From: an uncultured Oscillospiraceae bacterium
GTDB lineage: Bacteria; Bacillota; Clostridia; Oscillospirales; Oscillospiraceae
Direction of reading: 5' to 3'
Assembly (NCBI GenBank): GCA_947631845.1
Contig: CANRMY010000027.1
Span: forward strand, 1-32,623
Length of the DNA: 32,623 bases
This document shows, piece by piece, positions 2,667 to 31,287 of this stretch. Position numbers and translations under genes: made by a program. The notes beneath the pieces were generated by a model. The model was not told where the DNA came from. It saw nothing but the letters and a program-made list of their open reading frames with translations, and ran no database searches. The first letter of the stretch is position 1. Each line of letters opens with the position of its first letter.

Positions 2667-2672
2667 ACGGGA

Positions 2673-3075
2673 ATATAAGGTTGTCCGCCTTACAGGCGGA
2701 CGGGAATTTGCTTTCTTCTCTTTTGTGTTGACAAAAGAGAAGAAAGCAACAAAGAAGAGAAAAACAACTGAGAACCCCCTTTTAAAAACGACCAGAGGGG
2801 GCTTGCGAGCCCCCATCTGGACTCCCCCGGGGATCGCCCGCACGAGAGCTGACGCATTTCGTACATCGCACCCTGTACGGGCCGATGACCACATCGGCCC
2901 ACATGCGGCACCGCCGACTTCCTTTTGTACGGGCCGGACACCCGGCCGGCCCGCCCCGGTTAACCTCCTGGCTATCATTAACGCCGTACGGGCCGCCGCC
3001 CTCGGCGGCCCACCGAATTTCCCGATAATCTTCCGAATTACCTTGTACAGGCCGCCTCTCCAGGCGGCCTGTACG
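2673..3075 (+). repeat. Hairpin-module island 1 (left-half type)
   Basis: Gene-free stretch built of hairpins. In order: GTCCGCC/GGCGGAC at 2683-2701; a perfect 19-bp polypyrimidine/polypurine stem with loop GTTG at 2708-2749; an extra purine strand AAAGAAGAGAAAA at 2751-2763; a CCAGAGGGGG hairpin with TTGCGA apex near 2801-2820; then a run of GGGCC-based hairpins starting at 2875, 2927, 2986 and 3045, spaced 52, 59 and 59 bp. The last is a perfect 13-bp stem, 3045-3057 with 3062-3074. Only forward-oriented units are present, so this looks like half of the foldback seen in islands 2 and 3. No coding sequence is believable here. Confidence 0.85.
3045..3074. terminator. 13-bp palindromic hairpin between convergent-side repeats and the XRE gene
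   Basis: A GTACAGGCCGCCT arm and its exact complement flank a CTCC loop, 26 bp downstream of the XRE gene's stop on the minus strand. It could stop that transcript, but there is no clear U-tract on the minus strand. It is also the last GGGCC-type unit of island 1, so its role as terminator is only possible. Confidence 0.35.
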
Positions 3076-3099
3076 GCGTTTTAGGGCCGGAAATCTCCC

Positions 3100-4068: not shown

Positions 4069-4954
4069 TACGCCTCATCCCGGCGGGGGTTTATAAGGTT
4101 TTCGCCCTTATAAGGGCGGAGGGATTTGCTTTTCTCCTTTTGGATTTCCAAAAGGAGAAAAGGCAACAAAAGAGGAAAAGAAACCAGAGGGGGGCTTTCG
4201 CGTTTCCCCCCTCTGGACTCCCCCTTAAAACGACCACACAGGGGCTTGCGAGCCCCTATGTGGAGAACCCCGGGGAGCTCCCGCACGCACCCTGTACGGG
4301 CCGGACACCCGGCCGGCCCGCGTGTCGAATTCCCGGAACGCTATCCGTAGGGGCCGATGACCACATCGGCCCACACGCGGCACCGTCGAATTCCTTCCGT
4401 ACGGGCCGGACACCGGCCGGCCCGTGGCACCATCAAATTTCCGCATTGCCCTCCCCCAAAAAGGTTACGGCTTCGCCGCCTATTTACAAATCGGGCGGCC
4501 AAGAGAGGCCGCCCCTACGGGGTATAACGAAAGATGTTCAGGAATTCGGAGGATGGGCCGAGCGGGTCTCTGGCCCCTACAGTAATGCATCGGGATATCG
4601 GTGGGCCGCCGAGGGCGGCGGCCCGTACGGCGTCTAACGAAAGATTCCCGGGAATTCGAAACACGGGCCGGCCGGGTGTCCGGCCCGTACGCAAACAGAA
4701 ACGATGTTTTTGATGACTGCACGTTACCCGCCGCACCAGCGCGGGTAAAAGAGGAGCTGTGGCTTTAATAATAGAGCGGTGAGCGGCTAAGCGGGTTAAA
4801 CGCAGAGACCATTCGTAACAAAGGCGCGCGGTGATGAGTGGGACGGGCCGCGATTTCCGCCCTATTGTTTTTCTCCTCTTTGTTGCTTTCTCCTCTTTTG
4901 TCAACACAAAAGAGGAGAAAGCAAATCCCCGTCCGCCTATAAGGCGGACAACCC
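4069..4954. repeat. Hairpin-module island 2 (foldback)
   Basis: About 890 gene-free bases between two convergent genes. Left end: CGCCTCATCCCGGCGGGGG, then CGCCC/GGGCG, a 15-bp polypyrimidine/polypurine stem (4129-4143 with 4148-4162) and two G-rich hairpins. Forward GGGCC hairpins begin at 4294, 4347 and 4399. A central hairpin with TTCG apex lies near 4461-4483. Reverse-oriented GGGCC hairpins lie at 4493-4514, 4555-4580, 4601-4630 and 4664-4690. The right end has a conserved segment at 4736-4848, a perfect 19-bp polypyrimidine/polypurine stem (4883-4901 with 4906-4924), and GTCCGCC/GGCGGAC at 4931-4949. Module order and orientation mirror about the centre. Confidence 0.88.
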
Positions 4955-6187
4955 TCAGAACGCGAAATTTCCGTTGACAAATACGGGGATCTCCCGCCCG
5001 TCGGGGGTGAGGCCGGTGATGTTGAGGTCGGCGGAGCCCACCATGAAGTCCTCGTGGGTGATGGACTGGTTGAGGCCGGCGGCCAGACGCTCCGCCTCCG
5101 TCATGTCCGCGCCGCCCTCCACGGTGGGGTAGCTGGCGCCGAAGGCCAGGTGGCAGCTGGCGTTCTCGTCAAAGAGCGTGTCGTAAAAGAGGGTATCCAT
5201 GTTGGAGATAGGGGAGTCGTAGGGCACCAGGGCCACCTCGCCCAGATAACGAGCGCCCTCGTCTACGCCGATCTCATCCTCCAGCATTTTGCGGTGCTTG
5301 GGATCGGCCGTCTCGATGTTGACGATCCTGCCGTTTTCAAAGGTAAAGGCGAATTGGTCGATGATCTCGCCGCCGATCACAAAGGGCTTGGTGGACACCA
5401 CGCGGCCGTTGACGCCGTCCCGCTTGGGGGCGGTGAAGATCTCCTCCGTGGGCATGTTGGCGTTGAAGGCGACGCCTTTGGCGCTCCGGGAGTTCCCACC
5501 TTCCCAGTAGTGCCCTTGGGGCAGCTCGATGGTGAGGTCGGTGCCCAGGGAGTTTGTGTAGTGCAGGGACCGGAAACGGTACGCCGTCAGCTTCTTCTTC
5601 CGGGCGTTCAGCGCCTCGTTATGCTTTCTCCACGCCTCCACCGGGTCGTTGCCGGCGGTGATGCGCATGGTGGAGAAGATGGCCTCGGTGAGCTTCCCCA
5701 TGGCCTCGTCGCCGGAGACGCCGGGGTACATTTTTTGCGCCCATTTTTCCTCGGGCAGGGCGGCGATGCACCACTGGATCTTGTCGGACATCTGCATCTC
5801 CCGATACTCCGCCACGGCGGGGCCGAAGACCCGGCTCTCCCGCACCATGCGGGTGTGGTCCACGCCGTTCATGCCGTCGGGGTCGGAGCTGATGATGCTG
5901 AGAAACGCCGCGCCCTCCCGGGCCAGGGTGTTCAGCATGTCCGCCTGCCAGGGGCGGTAGGTGTCGAAGATCTCATCCGCGGCGTGCAGATACGTCTCCC
6001 GGCTGATGGCCTGGTCGCCCCAGCGCATGACCACCTCCCGCGCGCCCGCCTTGTAGGCCTCGCGCACCAGCATACGGGCAAACGGCGCCTTGTCCACCGG
6101 GCACCTGATCACCAGCGTCTGCCCCGGCTGGACGTTGATGCCCACCGAAATCAGGAGCTTCGCGTATTTTTCAAATCTCGGATCCAT
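4955..6187 (-). CDS. M29-family metallo-aminopeptidase (AmpS/PepS-like)
   Basis: Cytosolic aminopeptidase trimming N-terminal residues from peptides using two divalent metals. The 410-residue length fits the family. Candidate metal and catalytic residues are E248/E249 in MPTEEIFTAP, E317 in YLGEVALVP, H346 in NASCHLAFG, H379 in SITHEDFMVGS and D387. The ATG at 6187 follows GGGAGGAAACC and overlaps the 3' end of trmD by 17 bp. A longer upstream reading is an artefact of the trmD region. It sits where rplS (L19) usually follows trmD. Its stop is immediately followed by the right end of island 2. Confidence 0.93.
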   Translation of the reverse strand: MDPRFEKYAKLLISVGINVQPGQTLVIRCPVDKAPFARMLVREAYKAGAREVVMRWGDQAISRETYLHAADEIFDTYRPWQADMLNTLAREGAAFLSIISSDPDGMNGVDHTRMVRESRVFGPAVAEYREMQMSDKIQWCIAALPEEKWAQKMYPGVSGDEAMGKLTEAIFSTMRITAGNDPVEAWRKHNEALNARKKKLTAYRFRSLHYTNSLGTDLTIELPQGHYWEGGNSRSAKGVAFNANMPTEEIFTAPKRDGVNGRVVSTKPFVIGGEIIDQFAFTFENGRIVNIETADPKHRKMLEDEIGVDEGARYLGEVALVPYDSPISNMDTLFYDTLFDENASCHLAFGASYPTVEGGADMTEAERLAAGLNQSITHEDFMVGSADLNITGLTPDGREIPVFVNGNFAF

Positions 6188-9018: not shown

Positions 9019-9050
9019 AACGGTGCCGTGGGCAAACCCACGGCACCGTT
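9019..9050 (+). terminator. Stem-loop after the membrane protein gene
   Basis: A 14-bp stem, AACGGTGCCGTGGG at 9019-9032 with its exact complement at 9037-9050, loop CAAA. It begins right after the stop codon and probably ends the + strand transcript, although the following bases are only moderately T-rich. An identical copy lies at 9258-9289. Confidence 0.65.
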
Positions 9051-9289
9051 CCAGTTTGTCAAAAAACTCAAATTCGATATTTTTTCCGGCGGCATGTACG
9101 TCGGAAAAAATCCCTTTTGCCGCCCAAGTGTGCCCCTTCGGGGCGTGCGCAGGGCGACAGCAGGGTAATTTTCTATGAATTTCGCAAAATTCATAGAAAA
9201 TTACCCGCACGTTCCCTTTGTCGGAAAAAGCCCGTCAGGGCTTTTTCGACAGTCTCAAACGGTGCCGTGGGCAAACCCACGGCACCGTT
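9051..9289. repeat. Second hairpin-repeat family, between converging genes
   Basis: No gene here. The stretch holds a TTTTTCCGGCGGCATGTACG element at 9079-9119 that recurs upstream of ylxM at 11658-11694; a GCCCC-TTCG-GGGGC hairpin near 9132-9145; a perfect 20-bp stem, 9163-9182 with 9187-9206 (arm GGGTAATTTTCTATGAATTT, loop CGCA); an AAAAAGCCC/GGGCTTTTT hairpin at about 9220-9250; and a second exact copy of the 14-bp terminator stem at 9258-9289. The two exact copies are 239 bp apart. They stand between the converging membrane-protein and khpA genes. Confidence 0.8.
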
Positions 9290-11766: not shown

Positions 11767-11844
11767 GGAATATTTTTCAGGATTTGCACAGATAATAGTG
11801 TGAACAACGTGAACAACGCCGAAAGCATGTCTTTGGAGGACTCT

Positions 11845-14800
11845 ATGAAGGACACCGACACGGGAATATACATGGAAAACGAGACGCTGGGCAATTTCGC
11901 CCGCAACACCGCCTCCGCCCTGGAGCGGGACGGCTTTGTCAGCGGGGCGAAGAGCGCCGCCCGCCTCCAAAGGACGCTGCGCGTCCTGGCAAGCCGCTGC
12001 GCGGCCCTGAAAAAGGGCGGCCAGGGGGAGGCGGAGGAGTGGTTTCGGGACAACTGGTACCTGGCCGAGCGGGCGGGCAAGGCCGCGGCGGCGGAGCTGC
12101 GCGCCCTGGGCAAACTGCCCCGGTGCCTGGGCGGCGGCCAGGCGCTCGTCTTCGAGGCCGCCTCCGCCTTAGTGCGTTCGGGGCGCGGGGAGGTGACAGG
12201 GGAGCGGATGCGCCTTTTTCTGGATGAGTTCCAGAAGGTCCGGGTCCTGACGGAGCGGGAGCTTTCCGCCTTTGTCCCGGCCCTGACGGCGGAGCTGTGC
12301 GCCTTTCTGGAGGCCATATTGCCGGAGGGGGAGGTCAGGGACGACGCCGAGCGGGCCCTGCTTTTCAAAAACATCTTCACCTCCCTCCGGGCGCTGTCCG
12401 TCATCGACGCCGGCGACATCCTGGAGGCGGTGAACCGGGTGGAGGCCGCCCTGCGGCAGGATCCCGCCGGGATCTATCCCCTGATGGACGAGGATACCCG
12501 CCGCTCCTACCGCTCCAGGCTGGCCCTGGAGGCCAGACGGGCCGGGATGGAGGAGTACGACGCGGCCAAAAAGGTGCTGGAGCTGGCCTCTCAGGGGGAG
12601 GACCGGCATGTGGGGACGTATATCTTCACCCGCCCGCTGGGGAAGGCCCCCCGGGAGCGGCGGGCGTCCTGGTATATCGCCGCCGTCACCCTGGCGACGC
12701 TCTTTTTCACCGTCCTCACGGGCGTGGTCACGGGCTCGGTATGGGCGTCGCTCCTGGTGCTCCTGCCCGTGTCGGAGGCGGTGAAAAATCTGACGGACGC
12801 GGCGGCTCTGCGGCTTGTCAGGCCCCGGCGTCTGCCCAGAATGGCCCTGGCGGGCGGGATCCCCAAGGCGGGGAAGACCGTCTGCGTCATCTCCGCCCTC
12901 CTGACCGGGGAGAAGGACGGGCCGAAATTTGCCCGCCTCATGGAGGAGTACCGGCTGGCCAACCGGGACGCGGGGGAAAATCTGCTGTTCGGGCTGTTGG
13001 CGGACCTTCGGGAGGCGGGACAGAAGCGCGTCCGGGAGGACGGCCCCATCCTGGCCTCCGCCAGGGCGGCGGTGGAGGCGCTGAATGAGAAATACGGCGG
13101 CGGGTTCTATCTCTTTTACCGGGAGCGGGAGAGGAACGAGGCCGACAGCGTATGGATGGGCCGGGAGCGCAAGCGGGGCGCCATCGAGGAGCTGGTCAGG
13201 CTCCTGAGCGGGGAGAAAAGCGCCCTCCGGGCCCTTTGCGGGGACGAAAGCGCTCTCCCGGGCACGAACTTTATCCTGACGCTGGACGCGGACACCCGTC
13301 TGACCGCCGGGACGGCCCGGGAGCTGGTGGGCACGGCCCTCCATCCGCTGAACGTGCCGGTCATCGACGAGGCCCAGAAGCGGGTGGTGTCCGGCTACGG
13401 CATCCTGGAGCCCCGGGTGGCGGTGGAGCTGGAGAGCGCCGGAAAAACCGATTTTTCCCGGCTTTTCGCCGGCGTGGGCGGCTTCGACCCCTACGCGGGG
13501 GCGGTGAGCGACCTCTATCAGGACCTCTTTGACGAGGGGACGTTCATGGGCAAGGGGCTCATCAACGTGCCGGTGTACCGGCGGCTCCTGGATGGGCGGT
13601 TCCCGGACAACACGGTGCTGTCCCACGACATCCTGGAGGGGGCGTACATGCGGTGCGCCTTTGTCACGGATCTGGAGCTGTCCGACGGGTGCCCGGCTAA
13701 GATCACCTCCTGGTTTGCCCGGCAGGAGCGGTGGATCCGGGGCGACTGGCAGAATCTGCGCTGGTGTACGGGCCGGGTCAGGACCCGGGACGGGGCGCTG
13801 GTGAAAAATACCCTCCCGGAGCTGGACCGGTGGAAGATCTTAGACAATCTGCGCCGGAGCCTGCTGCCCCCGGCGGTGCTGATTGCCCTGCTGGCCGCCA
13901 TGCTCCTGCCGGGGCGGGGGCTGACGGCGGCGGCCCTCATCGCGCTGGCGGGGTATGTGAGCCCGCTCCTGCTGGATCTGACCCGGAGCTTTCTCCGGCA
14001 CGACGGCTCCGGCCTTGCCCGGTACCACTCCGCCGTCCTTCCGGGTCTGGGCGGGACGGTCACCAGGTGGCTGGTGACGCTGATGCTCCTGCCCGCCCAG
14101 GGCTTTATCCAGCTGAAGGCCGCCGCGACGGCCCTCTGGCGCATGACCGTCAGCCACCGGGGGCTTCTGCGCTGGGTCACCGCCTCGGAGGCGGAGAAAA
14201 AGCACGGCAACACCGTTTATGTGAACTATCTGGCGCTGGCGGCGTGCCCCCTGGCGGGACTTCTCCTGCTGCTGGCGGCCCGGAGCGCCCTGCCCTGGGC
14301 GGTGGGGATCGTCTGGATCTTCGCACCGGCCTTCGCCAAGGCGCTCTCCGCCCCGCGCCGGCAGGAGGCTTACGTCTCCCAGGCCGACAGGGCGTGGCTC
14401 CTGGGACAGGGCCGGGAGATCTGGCGGTTTTTTGAGGAGAACATGACGGCGGAGGACAACTTCCTGCCCCCGGACAACGTGCAGATCGAGCCGGACACCG
14501 GGGCGGCCCGCCGCACCTCCCCCACCAACATCGGACTGGCGCTCCTGTCCGCCGCCGCGGCGGCGGAGCTGGGGTATATAAGCCCCGCCCAGGCGGGGGA
14601 GCGGATCGGCAGGACGCTCACCGCCGTGGAGAAGCTGGAGAAGTGGCACGGGAATCTGCTGAACTGGTACGACACCCGCACGCTGGCGCCCCTGGAGCCC
14701 CGGTACGTGTCCACGGTGGACAGCGGCAATCTGCTGGGCTGTCTCATAGCGCTGAAGGCGTGGCTGGCCGCCACGGGGGACGAAAACGGTGCGGAGAGGT

Positions 14801-17800
14801 GCGAAAGGCTCATCGAGGCCACCGATCTGCGGCCCCTCTTTGATGAGCGGCGGAAGCTTTTTCACATCGGCTGGGAGCTGGGGAAGGATGAACCCACAAA
14901 GGGCTGGTACGATCTGTTGGCCAGCGAGGCGCGGCAGACCAGCTTCATCGCCGTGGCGCTGGGGCAGGCCCCCCGCAAGCATTGGCGGCGGCTGAGTAGG
15001 GCCCTGGTGAGTCAGGACGGCTACGCCGGGATGGTCAGCTGGACGGGCACCATGTTCGAGTACCTGATGCCCGATCTGCTCCTGCCCGTTCCCCGGGACT
15101 CCCTTCTCTATGAGAGCGCCCGGTTCTGCCTCTACGTCCAGAAGCGGGCGCGGCAGGGCGTCCCCTGGGGCATCTCCGAGAGCGGCTTTTACGCCTTCGA
15201 TCCGGGCCTTGCCTACCGCTACAAGGCCCACGGCGTCCAGCGCCTGGCCCTGAAGCGGGGCATGGATACCGAAACGGTGATCGCCCCTTACGCCGCGTTC
15301 CTGGCCCTGCCGCTGGATCCCCGGGGCGCGGTGCGGAACTTAAAGCGGCTGGAGGGGCTGGGCCTCTCCGGGAAATACGGCTTTTACGAGGCGGCGGACT
15401 TCACCCCCGCCCGCGCTGGCGGCGGCAGGCCCCGGATCGTCCGGAGCTTTATGGCCCACCATCTGGGCATGAGCCTGACGGCGGTGGCCAACACCCTCTG
15501 CGGCGGCGTCTTCCAGAAGCGGTTCATGGAGGACCGGCGCATGGGGGCCTTCCGGGAGCTGTTGGAGGAGCGGGTGCCCACGGGCCGCATCCTCCTGCGC
15601 CAGAGCCCCCGGGACGTGCCGGAGAAGCCCGGAAGGGCCGAATCCGGCGGCTATTTTGAGCGTCTGGACACGGTGGACGCCCTGACGCCCGCCGCCGTGC
15701 CCCTCTCCAACGGCCAGTATACGGTGCTCCTGACGGAGACGGGCGCGTCCCGGTCCCGGTTCCGGGAGCTGGAGGTGACGCGCTTTGACCCGGAGCCCCT
15801 GGGGGAGCCGGGGATGGCCCTCTATCTGCGGACGGAGAAGGAGCTGCTGCCCCTGACCCCCGCCCCGGACTACGACGAGACGGTTCGCTACACCTGTGAG
15901 CTCTCCGACACCCAGGGGTCGTTCAAGGCCAAAAAGGGCGGCCTGTCCGCCGTCCTCACCGTCTCCGTACCGCCCTCCGGGGCGGGGGAGGTGCGCCAGG
16001 TGGAGGTGACGGCCCCGGCGGAGCTGGCCGCCTGCGAGATCCTGTGCGTCTTTACCCCGGTCCTCCAGCGGCGGGCGGATTTTACAGCCCACCCGGCCTT
16101 CTCCCTGCTGGCCCTGGAGGCCAAGCTCACCGGCGGCGTCCTGACGGTCCGCCGGCGGCCCAGGCCGGGGGAGCGGGCGGTCTACCTGTGCGCGGCGGCG
16201 GATAAGCCCTTTATCGCCGTGACCCACGCCCGGCGGGGCGAGCCCCTGGGGGCGGGGGAGCTTTTGCGGGCCTGCCCGGACTTCCATGTGGCGCTGACGG
16301 TCCCCGTGAGGCTCGCCGGGGGCCGGGGGCGGGCGACCTTCGCCCTGGGCGTGGGGACGGACGCCGAGGAGGCCGCCGTCACGGCCCGGAGGAACCTCCA
16401 GCGCCGGGAGAACCAGGCGGTGTCCCGCCTCTCCGCCGCGGCGCTGATGCTGGGGCTGAACGTGGCCGACACCAGGGCCGCCCTGGGCCTCCTGCCCAGG
16501 CTGATCTTCGGCCCGGAGCCCTCGGAACAGCGGCAAAAGCTCCTGGCGGCGGGGAAGATCCCCTTAGAGGAGCTCTGGAGCCTGGGCCTGTCGGGGCAGA
16601 TCCCCCTGCTGTGCGCCAGGGTCGGGAGCGAGGACGAGCTGGAGGGGGCCAGAAAGCTTATCCGCCTCCACGCGCTCCTGGCGGAAAACGGGGTGGAGAG
16701 CGACCTTGCCCTGCTCCTCTCCGACGGCGGCGACTACCGCAAGGCCCAGCGGACGGCGGTGCTGGAGGAGCTGAGGCGCATCGGGCGGGAGAGCGCCCTG
16801 GACGCGCCGGGAGGCGTCCATCCGGTGGAATCGTCCGGGAACGCCGGCGCGGCCTGCGAGGCCTACGCCGATCTGAACGTCCGCCTGGACGCCGTTCCCG
16901 CCGCCCCGGCCCGCCGGGAGAGGACGCCGTTACCCCGCCCCCGCTGTCTGCGGGGCACGGGGGAGGTGACGTGCCGGTGGGCGGAGGATGGGACGTTCCG
17001 CTTCGCCATGACGGACGCCCTGCCGGAGGCCGCCTGGAGCCTGGTGCTGGCCAACGAGAGCTTCGGCTTCCTGGCTGACGAGTGCGGCACGGGCCATATG
17101 TGGAGCGAAAATTCCCGGCTCTTCAAGATCGACCCCTGGCTGGGCGACCCGGCGGCCGAAACGGGGCCGGAGCGGCTGACACTGCGGCTGGGGGGCGTGA
17201 CGCGCTCCCTCTTCGCCGACGGCTCGGGCCTGCCCACGCTGGTGGAGTACGGCTTCGGCTGGGCGGCCTGGGAGCGGGATTTCGGGGCTGTCCGCTCCCG
17301 CCTCACCGCCTTTGTGCCGGCGGATCTGGCCGCCCGGGTGCTGATTCTGGAGCTTACCGGCGACACCGGCGGCGCGGAGGTGGCCTACGACCTGGACCTC
17401 ATTTTGGGCGAGACGGCCCTGGGGGCCAGGGCCATCGTCACGAGCTTTGAGGGCGGGGCCTTTACCGCCCGCAACCCCTCCGGCCCCTATAAAAACCGGC
17501 GCTTCACCTGCCTTGTGTCCGAGACGCCGGACGCCTTCACCTGCCGGCGCAAAAGCGCTCTGATGGGGGTGTACGACGAATTTACCGGGGCGGGGGAGGA
17601 GCCCTGCGTCGCCTTTACCCTGCCGGCCACGGCGCGGCTCGTCATCGTCTCTGGCACCGCGCCCCTCCCCGACCTTCAAAACGCCCTCCGGGAGGCGGAC
17701 GGACTTCTGGAAAAGACCAGGGCCCACTGGCGGGAGATCTGCGGCCGGGTGAAGATCGAGACGCCGGATAAGCGTCTGGACGCCTTCGTCAACGGCTGGG

Positions 17801-19200
17801 CCGTCTATCAGTCCCTGGCCTGCCGCCTGCTGGCCCGCACGGGCCTCTACCAGAACGGCGGGGCCATGGGCTTCCGGGATCAGCTCCAGGACGCCCTGTC
17901 CCTGCTCTTAGTGGAGCCGGCGCTGGCCCGGGAGCAGATCGGGCTGGCCGCCTCCCGCCAGTACCGGGAGGGGGACGTGATGCACTGGTGGCACGACACG
18001 CCGGAGGGCCTGATGGGCGTGCGGACCCACTGCTCCGACGATCTGCTGTGGCTGCCCTGGGCACTGTGCGATTATGTTAACCGAACCGGCGACAGAACCG
18101 TTCTGCGTCAGGAGGAGAGCTGGCTGCTGTCCCCGCCCCTGGAGGCGGGGGAGCGGGACAGGTACGAGCGGCCCGGGGTGAGTACGGAGCGGGACACGGT
18201 ACTGCGCCACGCCCTGGCCGCCGCCGACCTGTTCCTCCGGCGGGGCGTGGGGGAGCACGGCCTGGCCCTGATGCTGGGCGGGGACTGGAACGACGGCTTT
18301 GACGGCGTGGGCCGGGCCGGACGCGGCGAAAGCGTGTGGCTGACCCTGTTCGGCAGTACGGTCCTGCGGGAGCTGGCGGCCCTCTGCCGCCGGGAGGGGG
18401 AGAACGGCGAGGCCTATGACCGGGCCTCCGCCACCCTGCTGCGGGCCGCCGAGGGGGCCTACCGGGGGTCGTGGTATCTCCGGGGCTTCTGCGACGACGG
18501 CACCCCCTTGGGGAGCGCCGCCGGGGACAGGCCGGAGGGGGAGCGGGAGTGCGAGTTGGATTCCCTCTCCCAGAGCTTCGCCGCCTTTGCCGGGGCCGAC
18601 AGGTCCAGGGTGAAGCAGGCGCTCCAGAGCGCGTATACCAGGCTCTACGACGAAAAAAGCCGCCTTGTCAAGCTCTTTGACCCGCCCTTTGACCGGGGGA
18701 GCGCGGAGGTGGGGTATATCCGCTCCTACGCCCCCGGCTTCCGGGAGAACGGCGGGCAGTACACCCACGCCGCCGTGTGGCTGGCGATGGCGCTGCTGAA
18801 AACAGGTCAGCGGGAGCGGGGCGCGGAGCTTCTGGCGGCCCTGGCGCCGGGGGAGCGGGAGGCGCGCCGGTATGCCGCCGAGCCCTACGTCATGGCCGCC
18901 GACGTCAGCGCCGCCCAGGGGCTTACGGGCCGGGCGGGCTGGACCTGGTACACCGGGTCGGCGGGGTGGTATTTCCGGGCGGTGACGGCGAGCCTGCTGG
19001 GCCTGCGCATGCGGGACGGGCGGCTCTTCGTGGAGCCGAATCTGCCCGACAGCCTCACCCCGGCCAAGGTGCTCTATACCGCCGGGGGCAGGACATTGGA
19101 TATCCGCCTCTTCCCGGAGGGCGCGCTCATCGACGGCGAGCCCGCGCCAAAGGAGGGCGTGGAGATAGGGGAGAGCCTCGCCCCGGCGGGGGGATTATAA
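11845..19200 (+). CDS. Cyclic beta-1,2-glucan synthase-type GT84/GH94 giant membrane protein
   Basis: About 2,451 residues with the domain order of NdvB/Cgs enzymes, which polymerise UDP-glucose into beta-1,2-glucan, adjust chain length and cyclise it. Residues about 275-315: membrane helices. About 340-650: glycosyltransferase with TLDADTRLTAG (about 478) and RQERWIRGDWQ (about 626). About 672-710 and 790-833: more helices. About 1000-1220: glycoamylase-like domain with WYDLLASEARQTSFIA and HHLGMS. About 2000-2420: GH94 phosphorylase domain with GGAMGFRDQLQD, a GGDWNDG motif with the likely catalytic Asp near 2150, and GWTWYTGSAGWY. The ATG at 11845 has GGAGG five bases upstream; earlier GTG/ATG codons lack a site. 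The gene stands alone. The last leucine and stop fall in the TTATAAGG end of island 3. Confidence 0.9.
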   Translation: MKDTDTGIYMENETLGNFARNTASALERDGFVSGAKSAARLQRTLRVLASRCAALKKGGQGEAEEWFRDNWYLAERAGKAAAAELRALGKLPRCLGGGQALVFEAASALVRSGRGEVTGERMRLFLDEFQKVRVLTERELSAFVPALTAELCAFLEAILPEGEVRDDAERALLFKNIFTSLRALSVIDAGDILEAVNRVEAALRQDPAGIYPLMDEDTRRSYRSRLALEARRAGMEEYDAAKKVLELASQGEDRHVGTYIFTRPLGKAPRERRASWYIAAVTLATLFFTVLTGVVTGSVWASLLVLLPVSEAVKNLTDAAALRLVRPRRLPRMALAGGIPKAGKTVCVISALLTGEKDGPKFARLMEEYRLANRDAGENLLFGLLADLREAGQKRVREDGPILASARAAVEALNEKYGGGFYLFYRERERNEADSVWMGRERKRGAIEELVRLLSGEKSALRALCGDESALPGTNFILTLDADTRLTAGTARELVGTALHPLNVPVIDEAQKRVVSGYGILEPRVAVELESAGKTDFSRLFAGVGGFDPYAGAVSDLYQDLFDEGTFMGKGLINVPVYRRLLDGRFPDNTVLSHDILEGAYMRCAFVTDLELSDGCPAKITSWFARQERWIRGDWQNLRWCTGRVRTRDGALVKNTLPELDRWKILDNLRRSLLPPAVLIALLAAMLLPGRGLTAAALIALAGYVSPLLLDLTRSFLRHDGSGLARYHSAVLPGLGGTVTRWLVTLMLLPAQGFIQLKAAATALWRMTVSHRGLLRWVTASEAEKKHGNTVYVNYLALAACPLAGLLLLLAARSALPWAVGIVWIFAPAFAKALSAPRRQEAYVSQADRAWLLGQGREIWRFFEENMTAEDNFLPPDNVQIEPDTGAARRTSPTNIGLALLSAAAAAELGYISPAQAGERIGRTLTAVEKLEKWHGNLLNWYDTRTLAPLEPRYVSTVDSGNLLGCLIALKAWLAATGDENGAERCERLIEATDLRPLFDERRKLFHIGWELGKDEPTKGWYDLLASEARQTSFIAVALGQAPRKHWRRLSRALVSQDGYAGMVSWTGTMFEYLMPDLLLPVPRDSLLYESARFCLYVQKRARQGVPWGISESGFYAFDPGLAYRYKAHGVQRLALKRGMDTETVIAPYAAFLALPLDPRGAVRNLKRLEGLGLSGKYGFYEAADFTPARAGGGRPRIVRSFMAHHLGMSLTAVANTLCGGVFQKRFMEDRRMGAFRELLEERVPTGRILLRQSPRDVPEKPGRAESGGYFERLDTVDALTPAAVPLSNGQYTVLLTETGASRSRFRELEVTRFDPEPLGEPGMALYLRTEKELLPLTPAPDYDETVRYTCELSDTQGSFKAKKGGLSAVLTVSVPPSGAGEVRQVEVTAPAELAACEILCVFTPVLQRRADFTAHPAFSLLALEAKLTGGVLTVRRRPRPGERAVYLCAAADKPFIAVTHARRGEPLGAGELLRACPDFHVALTVPVRLAGGRGRATFALGVGTDAEEAAVTARRNLQRRENQAVSRLSAAALMLGLNVADTRAALGLLPRLIFGPEPSEQRQKLLAAGKIPLEELWSLGLSGQIPLLCARVGSEDELEGARKLIRLHALLAENGVESDLALLLSDGGDYRKAQRTAVLEELRRIGRESALDAPGGVHPVESSGNAGAACEAYADLNVRLDAVPAAPARRERTPLPRPRCLRGTGEVTCRWAEDGTFRFAMTDALPEAAWSLVLANESFGFLADECGTGHMWSENSRLFKIDPWLGDPAAETGPERLTLRLGGVTRSLFADGSGLPTLVEYGFGWAAWERDFGAVRSRLTAFVPADLAARVLILELTGDTGGAEVAYDLDLILGETALGARAIVTSFEGGAFTARNPSGPYKNRRFTCLVSETPDAFTCRRKSALMGVYDEFTGAGEEPCVAFTLPATARLVIVSGTAPLPDLQNALREADGLLEKTRAHWREICGRVKIETPDKRLDAFVNGWAVYQSLACRLLARTGLYQNGGAMGFRDQLQDALSLLLVEPALAREQIGLAASRQYREGDVMHWWHDTPEGLMGVRTHCSDDLLWLPWALCDYVNRTGDRTVLRQEESWLLSPPLEAGERDRYERPGVSTERDTVLRHALAAADLFLRRGVGEHGLALMLGGDWNDGFDGVGRAGRGESVWLTLFGSTVLRELAALCRREGENGEAYDRASATLLRAAEGAYRGSWYLRGFCDDGTPLGSAAGDRPEGERECELDSLSQSFAAFAGADRSRVKQALQSAYTRLYDEKSRLVKLFDPPFDRGSAEVGYIRSYAPGFRENGGQYTHAAVWLAMALLKTGQRERGAELLAALAPGEREARRYAAEPYVMAADVSAAQGLTGRAGWTWYTGSAGWYFRAVTASLLGLRMRDGRLFVEPNLPDSLTPAKVLYTAGGRTLDIRLFPEGALIDGEPAPKEGVEIGESLAPAGGL

Positions 19201-20395
19201 GGAGTCCGCCCTTATAAGGGCGGGAAAGACTTACTTTCTCCTCTTTTGTGTTGACAAAAGAGGAGAAAGTAACAAAGAGGAGAAAAGCAATTTTTTGGGC
19301 CCGGTGGTGAACCGGGCCCAAGCTTTATTTCGGCGGAACGGCGGCCGCGGAGGTGGACGATACCCATGGTACCATTCATATCCGCGCGGTAGCGTCGTCG
19401 CGGAACCGGCTTAACCTCGGGCTCCAAGTATTCGCCCTCAGGCGCCAGGTTCGCTCCTCCTTTCCCCATCGGGCGACAGCCCGATGGGGGCCCCGCATTG
19501 TCTCTGCGCCTAACTCGCTTAGCCGCTCACAGATCTATTAACGAGGCGTGATGCCCTCTTTCGGGCCGCGCTGTTGCGGTGTATGTCGTGTGGTGTTCGA
19601 AAACATCGTTTCTGTACGGGCCGGACACCTGGCCGGCTCAAACACCGCATTGTCGAATCCCTTCCGTACGGGCCGGACACCCGGCCGGCCCGCCGACTTC
19701 CCGGAACGCCATCCGTAGGGGCCGATGACCACATCGGTTCACAATTTATATAGGCGGCGAAGCCGCAACCTTTTAAACAGAGGTGCGGTGGGAATTCGGT
19801 AGTGCCATGGGCCGCCGAGGGCGGCGGCCCGTACGGCTTCTAACGATAATTTTTCGGGAATTCGAGACACGGGCCGGCCAGGTGTCCGGCCCGTACGGGG
19901 TGCGTTGAACGAAATGCGCCGGGAAATCGTGGGCCGCCGAGGGCGGCGGCCCGTACGGCGTGTTAAAAAAGTTTTTCGGGAATACGGCATGCGGGCCGGC
20001 CAGGTGTCCGGCCCGTACGGAACGGAATTTGATAGTGCGGCGTGTGGGCCGATGTGGTCATCGGCCCCTACATTACCAAAGGTTACCACACGAATACAGC
20101 CGTACCAGCGCGGCGTGAAAGAGGACATCACGCCTCGTGGATAGAGCGGTGAGCGGCTAAGCGGGTTAGACGCAGAGACAATACGACGACGCTCCCGCAC
20201 GGATATGAGTGGTACCATGGGTATCGACCACCACCGCGGGAGCCGGACCGCCGTAATAACGCGAAGGGCCCGGTTCACAACCGGGCCCAAAAGCTGTTTT
20301 TCTCTTCTTTGAAGCTTTCTTCTCTTTTGTCAACACAAAAGAGAAGAAAGCGTACTCCCCGGCGGATGCGCCGGAATCACATCAAGGCCCTGCGG
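19193..20395. repeat. Hairpin-module island 3, long foldback element
   Basis: About 1.2 kb without a gene, between converging genes. The two ends are long imperfect inverted repeats: CCGCCC/GGGCGG at 19206-19223, a 19-bp polypyrimidine/polypurine stem at 19231-19272 against a 17-bp one at 20314-20351, GGGCCCGGT hairpins at 19297-19319 and 20266-20288, a 17-bp exact inverted match at 19358-19374 and 20210-20226, and AGCGTCGTCG at 19391-19400 against CGACGACGCT at 20184-20193. After about 94 extra bases on the left side (19401-19494), similarity resumes at 19495-19585 against 20095-20183. The centre carries forward GGGCC hairpins (19614-19740), a TTCG-capped hairpin (19753-19774) and reverse GGGCC hairpins (19809-20071). 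Confidence 0.9.
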
Positions 20396-23897: not shown

Positions 23898-24422
23898 GCG
23901 CCTCACCCCGGCGGGGGAATAAGGTTGTCCGCCTTATGGGCGGACGGGAATTTACTTTCTCCTCTTTTGTGTTGACAAAAGAGGAGAAAGTAACAAAGAG
24001 GAGAAAAGCAACCAGAGGGGGGATTTCGATTTCCCCCCTCTGGACTCCCCCTTGAACCGACCAGAGGGGGTTGCGACCCCCATCTGGACTCCCCCGGGAG
24101 CTCGCTCGCACGAGAGCCGGCGAATTTCTTACAACGCACCCCGTACGGGCCGGCCGGGTGTCCGGCCCGTACAGAAACCGCACGATTATAGATATCCAGC
24201 GCGGGTGATGTAGGAGCTGTTGCTTTAATAATAGAGTGGTGAGCGGCTAAGCGGGTTAGACGCAGAGACAATGCGTAACATAGGCGCGCGGTGATGAGTG
24301 GGGACGGGTACCGACTCACGGAAATGACATTTTCTCTCTTTTGAAGCTTTTCTCTCTTTTGTGTTCAACAAAAGAGAGAAAAGCGTATCCCCTCCGCCCT
24401 ATAAGGCGGACACCTTATAAAA
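23898..24422. repeat. Hairpin-module island 4, short foldback
   Basis: Gene-free region between the ABC ATPase promoter and the kinase gene. The left end repeats island 2: CGCCTCACCCCGGCGGGGG, then GTCCGCC/GGCGGAC, a 19-bp polypyrimidine/polypurine stem at about 23953-23994 and two CCAGAGGGGG-type hairpins. A single reverse GGGCC hairpin lies at 24146-24174. The right end repeats island 2 nearly base for base over about 110 bp (24199-24308), followed by a CTTTTCTCTCTTTTG stem at 24346-24383 and CCGCC/GGCGG at 24394-24410. Compared with islands 2 and 3 the central array is mostly missing. The last bases are coding for the histidine kinase. Confidence 0.86.
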
Positions 24423-25412
24423 CCGTATGGTAAACTGCGCTCCGCCGGCGTGGGCGTTCTCCGCCTTGACGGTGGCGTTGGAGCTCTGGAGGATGGTCCG
24501 GGCCAGGGCCAGGCCGATGCCGGCGGACTGGGCGCCGGCGTCGCGGCCCCGGTAGAAGCGCTCGAAGAGGTGGGGCAGATCCTCCGGGTCGATGCCGGGG
24601 CCGGTGTCGGTGACCGTCAGCTCCACGTAGATGGACGTCTCCGCCGCTGTCACCGTGACGCGCCCGCCGGGCGGGGTGTGCTCCAGGCAGTTTTTCAGGA
24701 TATTCCCCACGGCCTCGGCGCACCAGGCCAGATCCGCCCTGATCGCCTGGTCCCCCACGTTCTCCCGGCAGAGGGCCACGTCCCGCACCTCCAGGGCGAT
24801 GAGCAGGGGTTCGGCGGCGGCGTCCACCAGCTCCCGGGCGGTAAATACGGCGGGGGACAGCTCCACCGTTCCGGCGTCCAGGCGGCTGAGCTTCAAAAGG
24901 GCCGTCACCAGCCATTCAAGCCTCCCCAGCTGGCGCTGGAGATCCCGGGCCAGCTCCCGCCGGCGCTCCTCGGAAAGCGTAGGCTCCGCCAGCATGGCGG
25001 CGGCCAGATTCATGCTGGTCAGGGGCGTTTTCAGCTGGTGGGAGATGTCCGCCAGGGAGTCGGCCAGAAAGATCCTGTCCGCCTTGAGGGACTCGGACTG
25101 GGAGCGCAGAGCCACCAGCAGCTTGGAAAGCTCCGACTGGAGGACGGACAGCTCCCCCTCGGAGAAGCGGTCCAGGGCGAAGCTCTCCTGGCCGTGGACG
25201 ATGCGGTCCAGCTCGTCGGCCAGGGCGGCCATCCGCCGGTAATGCAGGAGGGAGAGGCAGACGTAGAGGGCGTACAGCGCCAGGGCCGTTATCAGGGCCG
25301 CCGCGCCGGCGGTTCGGTTCACGGCGAAGGAGAGCCCGCCAAGGGCGGCCCCCAGCGCCAGAAAGAGCAGGCTCTCCCGCCGGAAGGCGGCGTTTCTCAA
25401 AAGACGCTTCAC
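24399..25412 (-). CDS. Sensor histidine kinase, short-loop membrane type
   Basis: 337-residue kinase. Two membrane helices (about 15-31 and 36-57) are separated by only a few residues, as in intramembrane-sensing kinases that read the state of a partner transporter. The phospho-accepting H125 lies in DISHQLKTPLTSM. The ATPase domain has NILKNCLEHT and DTGPGIDPEDLPHLFERFYR, then SAGIGLALA. It starts with GTG, overlapping the response-regulator stop as GTGA. The last five residues (KVSAL) and the stop are encoded by the terminal hairpin of island 4, so the natural C-terminus has been replaced or trimmed; the catalytic core is intact. Confidence 0.93.
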   Translation of the reverse strand: MKRLLRNAAFRRESLLFLALGAALGGLSFAVNRTAGAAALITALALYALYVCLSLLHYRRMAALADELDRIVHGQESFALDRFSEGELSVLQSELSKLLVALRSQSESLKADRIFLADSLADISHQLKTPLTSMNLAAAMLAEPTLSEERRRELARDLQRQLGRLEWLVTALLKLSRLDAGTVELSPAVFTARELVDAAAEPLLIALEVRDVALCRENVGDQAIRADLAWCAEAVGNILKNCLEHTPPGGRVTVTAAETSIYVELTVTDTGPGIDPEDLPHLFERFYRGRDAGAQSAGIGLALARTILQSSNATVKAENAHAGGAQFTIRFYKVSAL

Positions 25413-30726: not shown

Positions 30727-31235
30727 TCCCGGCGCATTTCATTAAACGCACCCGTACGAATTCCTGAAAATCTTCCATAAAACGCCGTAGGGGCCGCCGC
30801 CCTCGGCGGCCCGTCGAATTCCCGGAAGCCTCCCCCAAAACGCCGTACGGGCCGGACACCCGGCCGGCCCGACGCACCATCGACTTCCCTTACGCGCCCT
30901 ACCTCGAAAAGGCTGCGGCTTCGCCGCTTATTAAAAACCGTGGGCCGCCTGGAGAGGCGGCCCCTACGGCGTTGTAATTAATGCATCGGGAAGTCGAAAC
31001 ACGGGCCGGCCGACGTCGTCGCGGAACCGGCGATGGCTCGCCCTCCAAGTATTCGGGCTCACTCGCACGGTTCGCTCCTCCTTTCCCCATCGGGCGACGC
31101 ACCCGTGCGGGGCCCCAATACGGCCCGTACGGAAGGGAATTCGGAGGTGCGGTGTGCTGCCTTTTCTCTCTTTGGCGACCCAAAGAGAGAAAAGCAAATC
31201 TCTTCCGCTCTTATAAGGGCGGAAACCTAATTCCC
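30727..31235. repeat. Hairpin-module island 5 (right-half type, with nested insertion)
   Basis: No gene here. Forward GGGCC hairpins start near 30787 and 30845; a central TTCG-capped hairpin lies at 30907-30937; a reverse hairpin at 30940-30967. A further reverse hairpin is interrupted: its left arm ends at about 31011, its right arm resumes at about 31119, and the 100-odd bases between resemble 19393-19494 in island 3. The right end is a CTTTTCTCTCTTTGG stem with loop CGA at about 31161-31194 and CCGC/GCGG bases at 31205-31226. The left terminal hairpins are missing. Confidence 0.83.
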
Positions 31236-31287
31236 CACGGAATGCGACCCTCCGGGAGTATTAATCCTGCAAATGCCGGGCAATCTC

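Follow-up and report, generated by a model that had tools for sequence, protein, structure and literature searches.

Foldback island in an Oscillospiraceae genome as a copy of a composite repeat-island family with predicted triplex-forming ends

Introduction

The intrastrand triplex motif TM_ECO, earlier called PIT, is described by Holder et al. (2015, PMC4666352) as a hairpin plus a third purine strand in the order Y-R-R, present in many intergenic genomic copies, with occasional inverted pairs and with loci tied to strain variability. These features are shared by the repeat that we call module A. The two differ in their triads, which are about 13 nt and A-rich in module A but 9 nt and G/C-rich in E. 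coli TM_ECO, and in that module A, unlike TM_ECO as described there, forms the paired ends of a composite island. According to the same paper, the E. coli triplex was seen in solution but not by in vivo footprinting; neither Firmicutes nor Clostridia is mentioned in the portions of its text drawn on here.

A second set of related systems comprises the GTAG-tagged REPs, BIMEs, and REPINs with their RAYT (PMC3733652, PMC3116915), which have in common with the islands a GTA(G/C) tag and a GC hairpin with exchanged stem pairs and, as far as PMC3733652 is drawn on here, clustering, a location at gene 3' ends, and a RAYT-like gene in the genome. Unlike in those systems, REPs constitute only the core of the islands described below, and the sections of PMC3733652 used here list GTAG repeats for Proteobacteria, Cyanobacteria, Chloroflexi, and PVC, not for Firmicutes. 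The TIR families of TIRtrons, outlined in the same source, resemble the islands in being partly self-complementary and in some cases arranged in dimers or clusters; unlike these, module A has no Y1-type gene nearby in the 25 loci searched. TRIP1 repeats of E. coli (PMC10888264, in the parts considered) are likewise multi-locus repeats that mediate chromosomal rearrangements, but each of their five types is confined to its own fixed locus, a comparison made by description only. Bacterial MITEs share with the islands their short length, inverted ends, intergenic location, and presence/absence variation, whereas the islands have no fixed interior, no target duplication that could be read, and no partner transposase among 25 Y1-type loci. 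Foldback transposons, a eukaryotic class, carry long modular inverted arms. Such arms are also found in the islands, for which presence/absence is seen, but here they are interchangeable and not always alike.

Here, we analyze a window of 32,623 nt from an uncultured Oscillospiraceae bacterium, whose third island (island 3, 19195-20385) is a foldback structure. With a probability of roughly 70%, we read this island as a member of a composite repeat-island family, whose islands are gained, lost, and re-composed and form island-to-island junctions, with module A predicted to form a triplex and with pieces that spread as non-autonomous repeats. The first-pass annotation knew of no named family with such an architecture; within the searches made, this holds for the whole, but some of its parts are of known kinds, namely, REPs and intrastrand-triplex motifs.

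Architecture of island 3

Island 3 is organized as A-B-C-D-E / REP core / E-C-B-A. On the plus strand, left-end module A (19196-19289) holds a pyrimidine-purine hairpin with 19-bp arms (19231-19272) and a third purine strand (19273-19286) that mirrors the purine arm, followed by the GGGCCCGGT hairpin of module B (19295-19321) and by module C (19331-19392). The left arm is then interrupted by module D (19393-19494, minus strand, 102 bp), a separate repeated element with strong covariation that the right arm lacks, and continues with module E (19495-19600, plus strand). The core consists of three forward REPs (19614-19740, plus strand), which start at 19614, at 19666, and, with an imperfect stem, at 19715, central module X (19744-19800, plus strand) with its TTCG-capped hairpin on the minus strand, and five reverse REPs (19809-20071, minus strand). 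The right arm, entirely on the minus strand, contains module E (20085-20185), module C (20186-20250), module B with its GGGCCCGGT hairpin (20266-20288), and module A (20294-20373), in which the hairpin spans 20314-20351 and the third strand about 20298-20311.

The inverted end hairpins (19231-19272 and 20314-20351) and the GGGCCCGGT hairpins of both arms noted by the first-pass annotation were all recovered, as was its 17-bp exact block in module C (19358-19374 and 20210-20226), and its conserved inverted 90-bp stretch corresponds to module E (19494-19594 and 20085-20185). The nearly 300-bp imperfect arms that it described are indeed inverted, yet their similarity is about 80% and D splits the left one: the outer arm pair (19234-19400/20184-20350) is 80% complementary, and the second (19494-19594/20085-20185) is 82% complementary. 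The best ungapped inverted match of the island scored 68 (+1/-2 scoring), compared with a mean of 12.2 (standard deviation, 2.0; maximum, 18) in 200 dinucleotide shuffles. A lack of coding capacity was borne out for the island 3 copy, whose longest listed open reading frame (19739-20290, minus strand) yielded nothing in Pfam at an E value of 0.001; this copy combines the terminal inverted repeats and the non-coding character of MITEs.

The island family

The search of this genome and of related ones proposed by the first-pass annotation showed the end module to be multi-copy: a model of module A gave 147 matches in the island's own genome (150 candidates scored), and of 25 genomes from the genus, 16 had matches. 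By BLAST, the own genome gave 276 matches. A single copy, a fixed locus, and a lack of inverted similarity, named beforehand as speaking against that annotation's reading, were not what we observed. The islands, of which this bacterium has dozens, are mosaics with inverted A ends, interchangeable arms, and a core that usually consists of GTAG/GTAC-tagged REP palindromes. Neighboring A copies less than 1.5 kb apart lie in +- orientation in 26 of 27 cases at own loci and in 20 of 21 cases at loci of relatives. Half islands also occur, and among the 69 A matches at own loci, 17 are outside any inward pair. Three A pairs in relatives enclose genes; those enclosed in G022 may be cargo or may lie between two adjacent half islands. 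One genome, G014, has 17 matches to D and none to A, which indicates that the modules are independent families. Since exact patterns of A and D had no match in viral contigs (exact patterns only), a phage origin was discarded.

The end module A

Modules A and D both have strong local structure and strong covariation. In module A, the pyrimidine-purine hairpin precedes a third purine strand, which mirrors the purine arm and covaries with it. Stem covariation was 0.324, compared with 0.146 in shuffles (0 of 500 as high), while further pair types showed no excess (17 versus 17.8 in shuffles, 446 of 500 as high). Among 48 distinct copies, the third strand fits better as a mirror than as a direct repeat in 39, with six ties and three copies favoring the direct repeat. 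The summed mirror score was 574 (direct, 509) against a shuffled mean of 511, and none of 1,000 shuffles reached it, although this count is not a probability because the copies are related.

It could be argued that the mirror third strand is merely a by-product of low-complexity purine sequence and that no triplex forms. The mirror of the main variant, AAAAGAGGAGAAAG, differs little from the variant itself (score of 13 as mirror and 12 as direct repeat), and the relatedness of the copies that weakens the shuffle count also fits this idea. However, the asymmetric variants AAAAGAGAAGAAAG, AAAAGGAGAAAAG, and GGAAAAGAGAAAAAG are followed by their mirror in most copies, and the observed sum lies above all shuffles, so that we consider a by-product unlikely. 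Such a three-strand match is characteristic of purine-motif intrastrand DNA triplexes, a fold predicted here from sequence: module A has the three blocks of such a motif, with the third strand mirroring the stem arm of like kind. Module A is a motif of a known, TM_ECO-like kind, which is used here in pairs at the ends of a composite element that is itself new. A similar but weaker signal of a putative mirror third strand was seen in module G (152, versus a shuffled mean of 141 and a direct score of 142; 0 of 1,000 shuffles as high; 23 variants). With a third strand that has kept pace with several changes of its stem, nature itself supplies evidence of a maintained three-strand match, and the A family provides ready-made natural variants for triplex tests.

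The REP core and candidate enzymes

All tagged hairpins of the window (21 entries, with one palindrome counted on both strands) lie inside islands and carry the tag GTAG or GTAC. They share the characteristics of the GTAG class of REP/BIME, namely, a GTAG-type tag beside a short palindrome, many copies, and an intergenic location. The forward-left, reverse-right arrangement seen in the first-pass annotation was the prevailing one: across 26 own-genome islands (22 with REPs), REPs point inward, the forward orientation accounting for 37 of 47 in left halves and the reverse one for 40 of 50 in right halves.

A RAYT-like open reading frame occupies one collinear locus in G000, G001, G002, and G018. 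That of G000 (C59) scores above the Pfam Y1_Tnp cut-off and below the NCBIfam RAYT cut-off; such reading frames reached 52.5 and 57.1 bits against a cut-off of 80. The two REPs at this gene sit within the reading frame rather than at its sides. Module A had no match in 25 loci with Y1 transposase-like genes, so that no link between A and that enzyme was seen. IS200-type TnpA genes of G012, G018, and G019 were rejected as the engine, given that no tagged REP was found in the five loci examined and no A in the 25 Y1-type loci.

The tag, the hairpin, the RAYT-like gene, and the 3'-end location would all fit ordinary REP/BIME clusters in which A, the arms, and D are chance accretions and REP transposition accounts for everything, and REP arrays without A do exist, as in the G018 spacer at the site of island 4. 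Against this, islands L062, L075, L076, and L079 carry A and arms but lack REPs, A copies are paired in inverted orientation in 26 of 27 close neighbors, and D occurs without A in G014. We therefore regard REP transposition as the sole cause as quite unlikely.

Islands in related genomes

Comparison of orthologous spacers, also suggested by the first-pass annotation, showed that islands in sister species are missing or of other content. The L005 site is empty in G002, with both flanks intact and no sequence lost, and the L079 island and island 5 are missing in G001, G002, and G018, with adjacent flanks. Some empty sites have, at the island position, a terminator-like hairpin that is native to the spacer, and several gains also displaced native spacer sequence. 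No target-site duplication was readable at 11 islands and at islands 4 and 5; compared proteins of the sister species differ by about 5 to 10%.

All five islands of the first-pass annotation exist. Island 1 (2668-3090) has a left A, H, and REPs but lacks the right A, and island 2 (4091-4959) reads A-G-H / REPs / E-type arm - A; both coincide with order breaks in G001, G002, and G018. Island 4 (23917-24420) is absent from G002 and has other content in G001 and G018, and island 5 (30757-31240) contains REPs, X, D, and one A. The window shows three order breaks against G002, located at islands 1, 2, and 3, and the contigs continue beyond the breaks. Swapped junctions, at which flanks of different islands are joined, numbered 5 of 15 in G002, 3 of 15 in G001, and 1 of 10 in G018 (raw counts), and three of those against G001 and G002 depend on the assembly of the own genome.

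Swapped junctions and replaced spacers are also what one would expect if islands were never inserted and spread solely by homologous rearrangement and gene conversion among spacers. The empty L005 site and the adjacent flanks at L079 and island 5 in three relatives speak against this, and we hold it to be similarly improbable as REP transposition alone. Insertion combined with island-to-island recombination is well supported.

Under the composite-island reading, single-stranded A, e.g., on the lagging strand, would fold into a purine-motif intrastrand triplex, and island pieces would spread as single-strand-structured non-autonomous repeats: REPs probably via the RAYT-like gene retained at a single locus and A caps through some putative enzyme. 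Homologous recombination between islands could swap arms and rearrange the chromosome, which would account for the foldback shape at places where two similar arms come together. It is tempting to speculate, although we rather doubt it, that the islands represent a novel class of composite mobile DNA with intrastrand-triplex ends, that the three-way covariation reflects a reading of the fold itself by selection or by the copying enzyme, and that islands with triplex caps, some of which enclose genes in one relative, are a driver of chromosome rearrangement within the genus. Because A lies at rearrangement junctions, the link proposed between motifs of this kind and genome instability can be tested beyond the groups studied so far.

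Setting at gene ends

Islands are located mostly at gene ends: by composition-based gene calls, at least one gene 3' end points toward the island in 22 of the 24 cases in which both flanks were called. This setting, the strong covariation of A and D, and the terminator-like native hairpins at some empty sites would suit large transcribed non-coding RNAs or two-way terminators that are kept for function and immobile, but arm types mix, so that the long arm-to-arm stem and overall fold are not conserved, close relatives lack whole islands, and the window has no Rfam family at gathering score, making this very improbable. In a permissive Rfam scan of four loci, only a T-box reached that score. 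Of the two options in the first-pass annotation, the non-autonomous mobile element is thus favored by multi-copy, dispersed islands that vary at orthologous spacers and by the non-coding nature of the island 3 copy, whereas the very large structured RNA is rejected as the principal reading, given the exchangeable arms and the orthologous spacers that lack islands.

The left end of island 3 overlaps the preceding GH94 gene (11800-19200), whose stop codon (19198-19200) lies inside the repeat; the outermost GC hairpin (CCCCGGCGGGG) with the TTATAAGG motif (19170-19200, plus strand) contains the final codons and stop of this gene. Island 4 supplies a new C terminus to the kinase gene at 24399-25412.

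Island 3 belongs to a multicopy family of capped islands

The large foldback described by the first-pass annotation is present at island 3 (19195-20385) as two inverted blocks, 19234-19400/20184-20350 (80% alike) and 19494-19594/20085-20185 (82% alike), which in the left arm are split by module D, a separate repeat. The top ungapped inverted match of the island scored 68, against 12.2 +/- 2.0 (maximum, 18) in 200 dinucleotide shuffles. The longest ORF listed within island 3 had no Pfam match, and the window held neither a tRNA nor an Rfam match at gathering score. The annotation had left open whether the foldback is a mobile element and proposed a whole-genome search, which returned 276 BLAST matches in the own genome (2.59 Mb, 119 contigs). 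Island 3 was matched in 21 of 40 genomes: its own, 19 of 24 further members of the genus, and, by one weak match, 1 of the 15 genomes belonging to other families.

The own-genome islands were fetched as stretches, and their modules were annotated by profile search. In 26 islands, one of which extends beyond its contig end, an inward-facing pair of module A (an end module of about 95 bp with a Y-R hairpin) spans 504-1263 bp. Neighboring A copies less than 1.5 kb apart were oriented +- in 26/27 cases in own-genome loci and in 20/21 cases in a partly overlapping set of loci from relatives. Of the 69 A matches in own-genome loci, 17 did not belong to an inward pair, some of these being at contig ends. 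The interior is made up of arms of a few types (B-C-E, G-H, and J, which is a variant E arm), usually with REPs (GTAG/GTAC-tagged palindromes) and optionally with module D. Island 3 is the case with B-C-E on both arms, the halves of islands with one G-H arm have only A in common, and REPs are missing from some arm-bearing islands of about 520-630 bp.

A covariance model, likewise suggested earlier and built here for module A, gave at least 147 matches in the own genome, a count that may be a lower bound because 150 candidates were scored; it matched 16 of the 25 genus genomes, own included. An exact-match scan of 84,980 species genomes with a 28-position A-hairpin pattern, which misses other A variants, yielded 58 stretches (57 labeled Oscillospiraceae and 1 Lachnospiraceae), all from metagenome-assembled genomes named "Lapin" and thus, going by the name, probably from rabbits.

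Islands differ in presence and content among sister species

Island flanks were compared in three sister species (G001, G002, and G018), whose proteins encoded next to island 3 show 90-95% identity, and matching spacers proved to lack the islands or to differ in content. Island 5 (30757-31240) is absent in all three, with 6, 11, and 20 bp between the matched flanks, and island 4 (23917-24420) is absent in G002, which has 17 bp there, including a small palindrome. The spacer that corresponds to island 3 measures 289 bp in G001 and contains REPs and D; in G018 the site is occupied by an A-G-H arm together with REPs. Eleven of 21 further islands were read, picked where a relative kept both flanks close, so that the choice was nonrandom. 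For 8 of the 11, at least one relative had no A module between the flanks, and for the other 3 the relatives carried half of an island, a 144-bp form, or REPs plus one arm. The L005 site in G002 is clean and empty; several cases also involved the loss of native spacer sequence.

The kinase gene at 24399-25412 ends in FYKGTV in the three relatives and in FYKVSAL in the window, where module A encodes the last residues. The adjoining histidine kinase and GH94 genes take their final codons, stop included, from island ends at 24399-24420 and 19170-19200, respectively.

Gene order breaks at islands

Compared with G002, the window shows three order breaks (2668/3040, 4089/4955, and 19170/20392), each on an island. 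Islands 1 (2668-3090) and 2 (4091-4959) are order breaks in G001 and G018 as well; each of the three relatives has a contig that continues for kilobases beyond the island-1 break, the remaining interruptions in G001 and G018 fall at contig ends, and islands 4 and 5 are unbroken throughout. For 23 islands, flanks brought together in a relative at a distance of up to 3.5 kb were counted, omitting partnerless flanks and islands 4 and 5; this gave 10 original and 5 swapped junctions in G002, 12 and 3 in G001, and 9 and 1 in G018; three of the swapped junctions rest on the own genome's assembly. A closed cycle in G002 joins the flanks of island 3 and of the islands at L004, L075, and L077, three of which are joined likewise in G001. 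Repeat-driven misassembly is unlikely next to island 3, since the G002 junctions there have spacers of only 153 and 159 bp. A T-box leader (Rfam; L077:3695-3913) adjoins the island at L077, upstream of a gene that we take to resemble valS. The matching leader in G002 adjoins the GH94 gene of island 3, not the L077 position.

The core of most islands holds inward-pointing REPs

All 21 tagged GC hairpin entries in the window, one palindrome being counted on both strands, lie inside islands. Their stems vary by exchanged pairs (GGGCCGATG..CATCGGCCC, GGGCCGCCG..CGGCGGCCC, and others), and across the 26 islands they point forward in 37/47 cases in the left half and in reverse in 40/50 cases in the right half. 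They are the GTAG class of REPs described in PMC3733652, where Firmicutes are not among the phyla given for GTAG repeats. A RAYT-like ORF (L060:1441-2010, contig C59), a Y1-type transposase-like gene, scores above the Pfam Y1_Tnp cutoff and below the NCBIfam RAYT cutoff. Two REPs in opposite orientation lie within its reading frame, and the locus is collinear in the three sister species, where it likewise contains a REP pair. A second Y1 transposase-like gene (L059:1267-2103) has repeats of another kind downstream and no tagged REPs nearby.

No inward A pair in own loci is more than 1.4 kb apart. Three wider pairs occur in loci of relatives: two in Lapin-021__bin7 (L197:3130-5000 and L212:2165-4129), each enclosing a predicted GNAT acetyltransferase, joined in L212 by a metallo-beta-lactamase-fold protein, and one at L224:3575-5828, where one of two enclosed ORFs resembles, judging from its sequence, a sigma factor. 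No transposase was recognized among the genes in these three pairs, which may represent either cargo or two half islands flanking a gene pair. By codon composition, the genes flanking 24 islands are convergent in 10 cases, tandem in 12, and divergent in 2 (2 more islands had one flank missing), the same preference as PMC3733652 reports for REPs.

Module A carries a covarying third strand

In the A hairpin, 99% of cells are paired, and 10 of 16 pairs change on both sides. Its covariation score was 0.324 versus 0.146 in shuffles (0/500 as high), and a measure of further pair types was not above shuffles (446/500 as high). The purine arm is followed by a short linker and a second purine run (AAAAGAGAAGAAAG then CAAAGAAGAGAAAA; AAAAGGAGAAAAG then CAAAAGAGGAAAA), which we scored against the mirror image and against a direct copy of the arm. 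The stem could be used in 138 of the 158 A copies, a set to which overlapping loci contribute, and these gave 48 distinct combinations; the mirror was better in 39, tied in 6, and the direct copy better in 3. Summed scores were 574 for mirror, 509 for direct, and on average 511 for third strands dealt to other stems; 574 was reached by 0/1000 shuffles, a count that is not a probability because the A copies are related. Proteins that bind B-DNA recognize direct or inverted symmetry and not the mirror kind. A mirror repeat has its physical basis in a purine third strand that runs antiparallel. TM_ECO, the intrastrand triplex motif of E. coli, is defined by the same Y-R-R order; according to PMC4666352, it forms a triplex in solution, was not seen to do so in cells, and has loci variable among strains. 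After module G hairpins (window 4184-4216 and others) comes a pyrimidine run with a weak tendency to track the pyrimidine arm's mirror image (152 versus 141 shuffled).

Among the openly licensed papers listed by literature searches, none had a title or abstract describing such islands. The REP core and the triplex motif are of known kinds; what appears to be new is their union in a capped, recombining island whose third strand covaries.

Module D and other repeats

Module D (about 100 nt; window 19393-19494, 31014-31115, and many other loci) shows strong RNA-like covariation, with 17 of 24 pairs altered on both sides and a score of 0.431 versus 0.145 shuffled (0/500 as high). It occurs in both orientations and at some places in tandem. 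Another genome, G014, has 17 D matches and zero A matches; among 197 genomes of the order, D was found in 6, of which 3 belong to the genus and the remaining 3 gave a single weak match each. Window segment 7462-9333, which carries a DUF6591 gene, is unmatched at that place in the three sister species, and a repeat of about 210 bp at 9049-9257 has dozens of matches in relatives among those listed.
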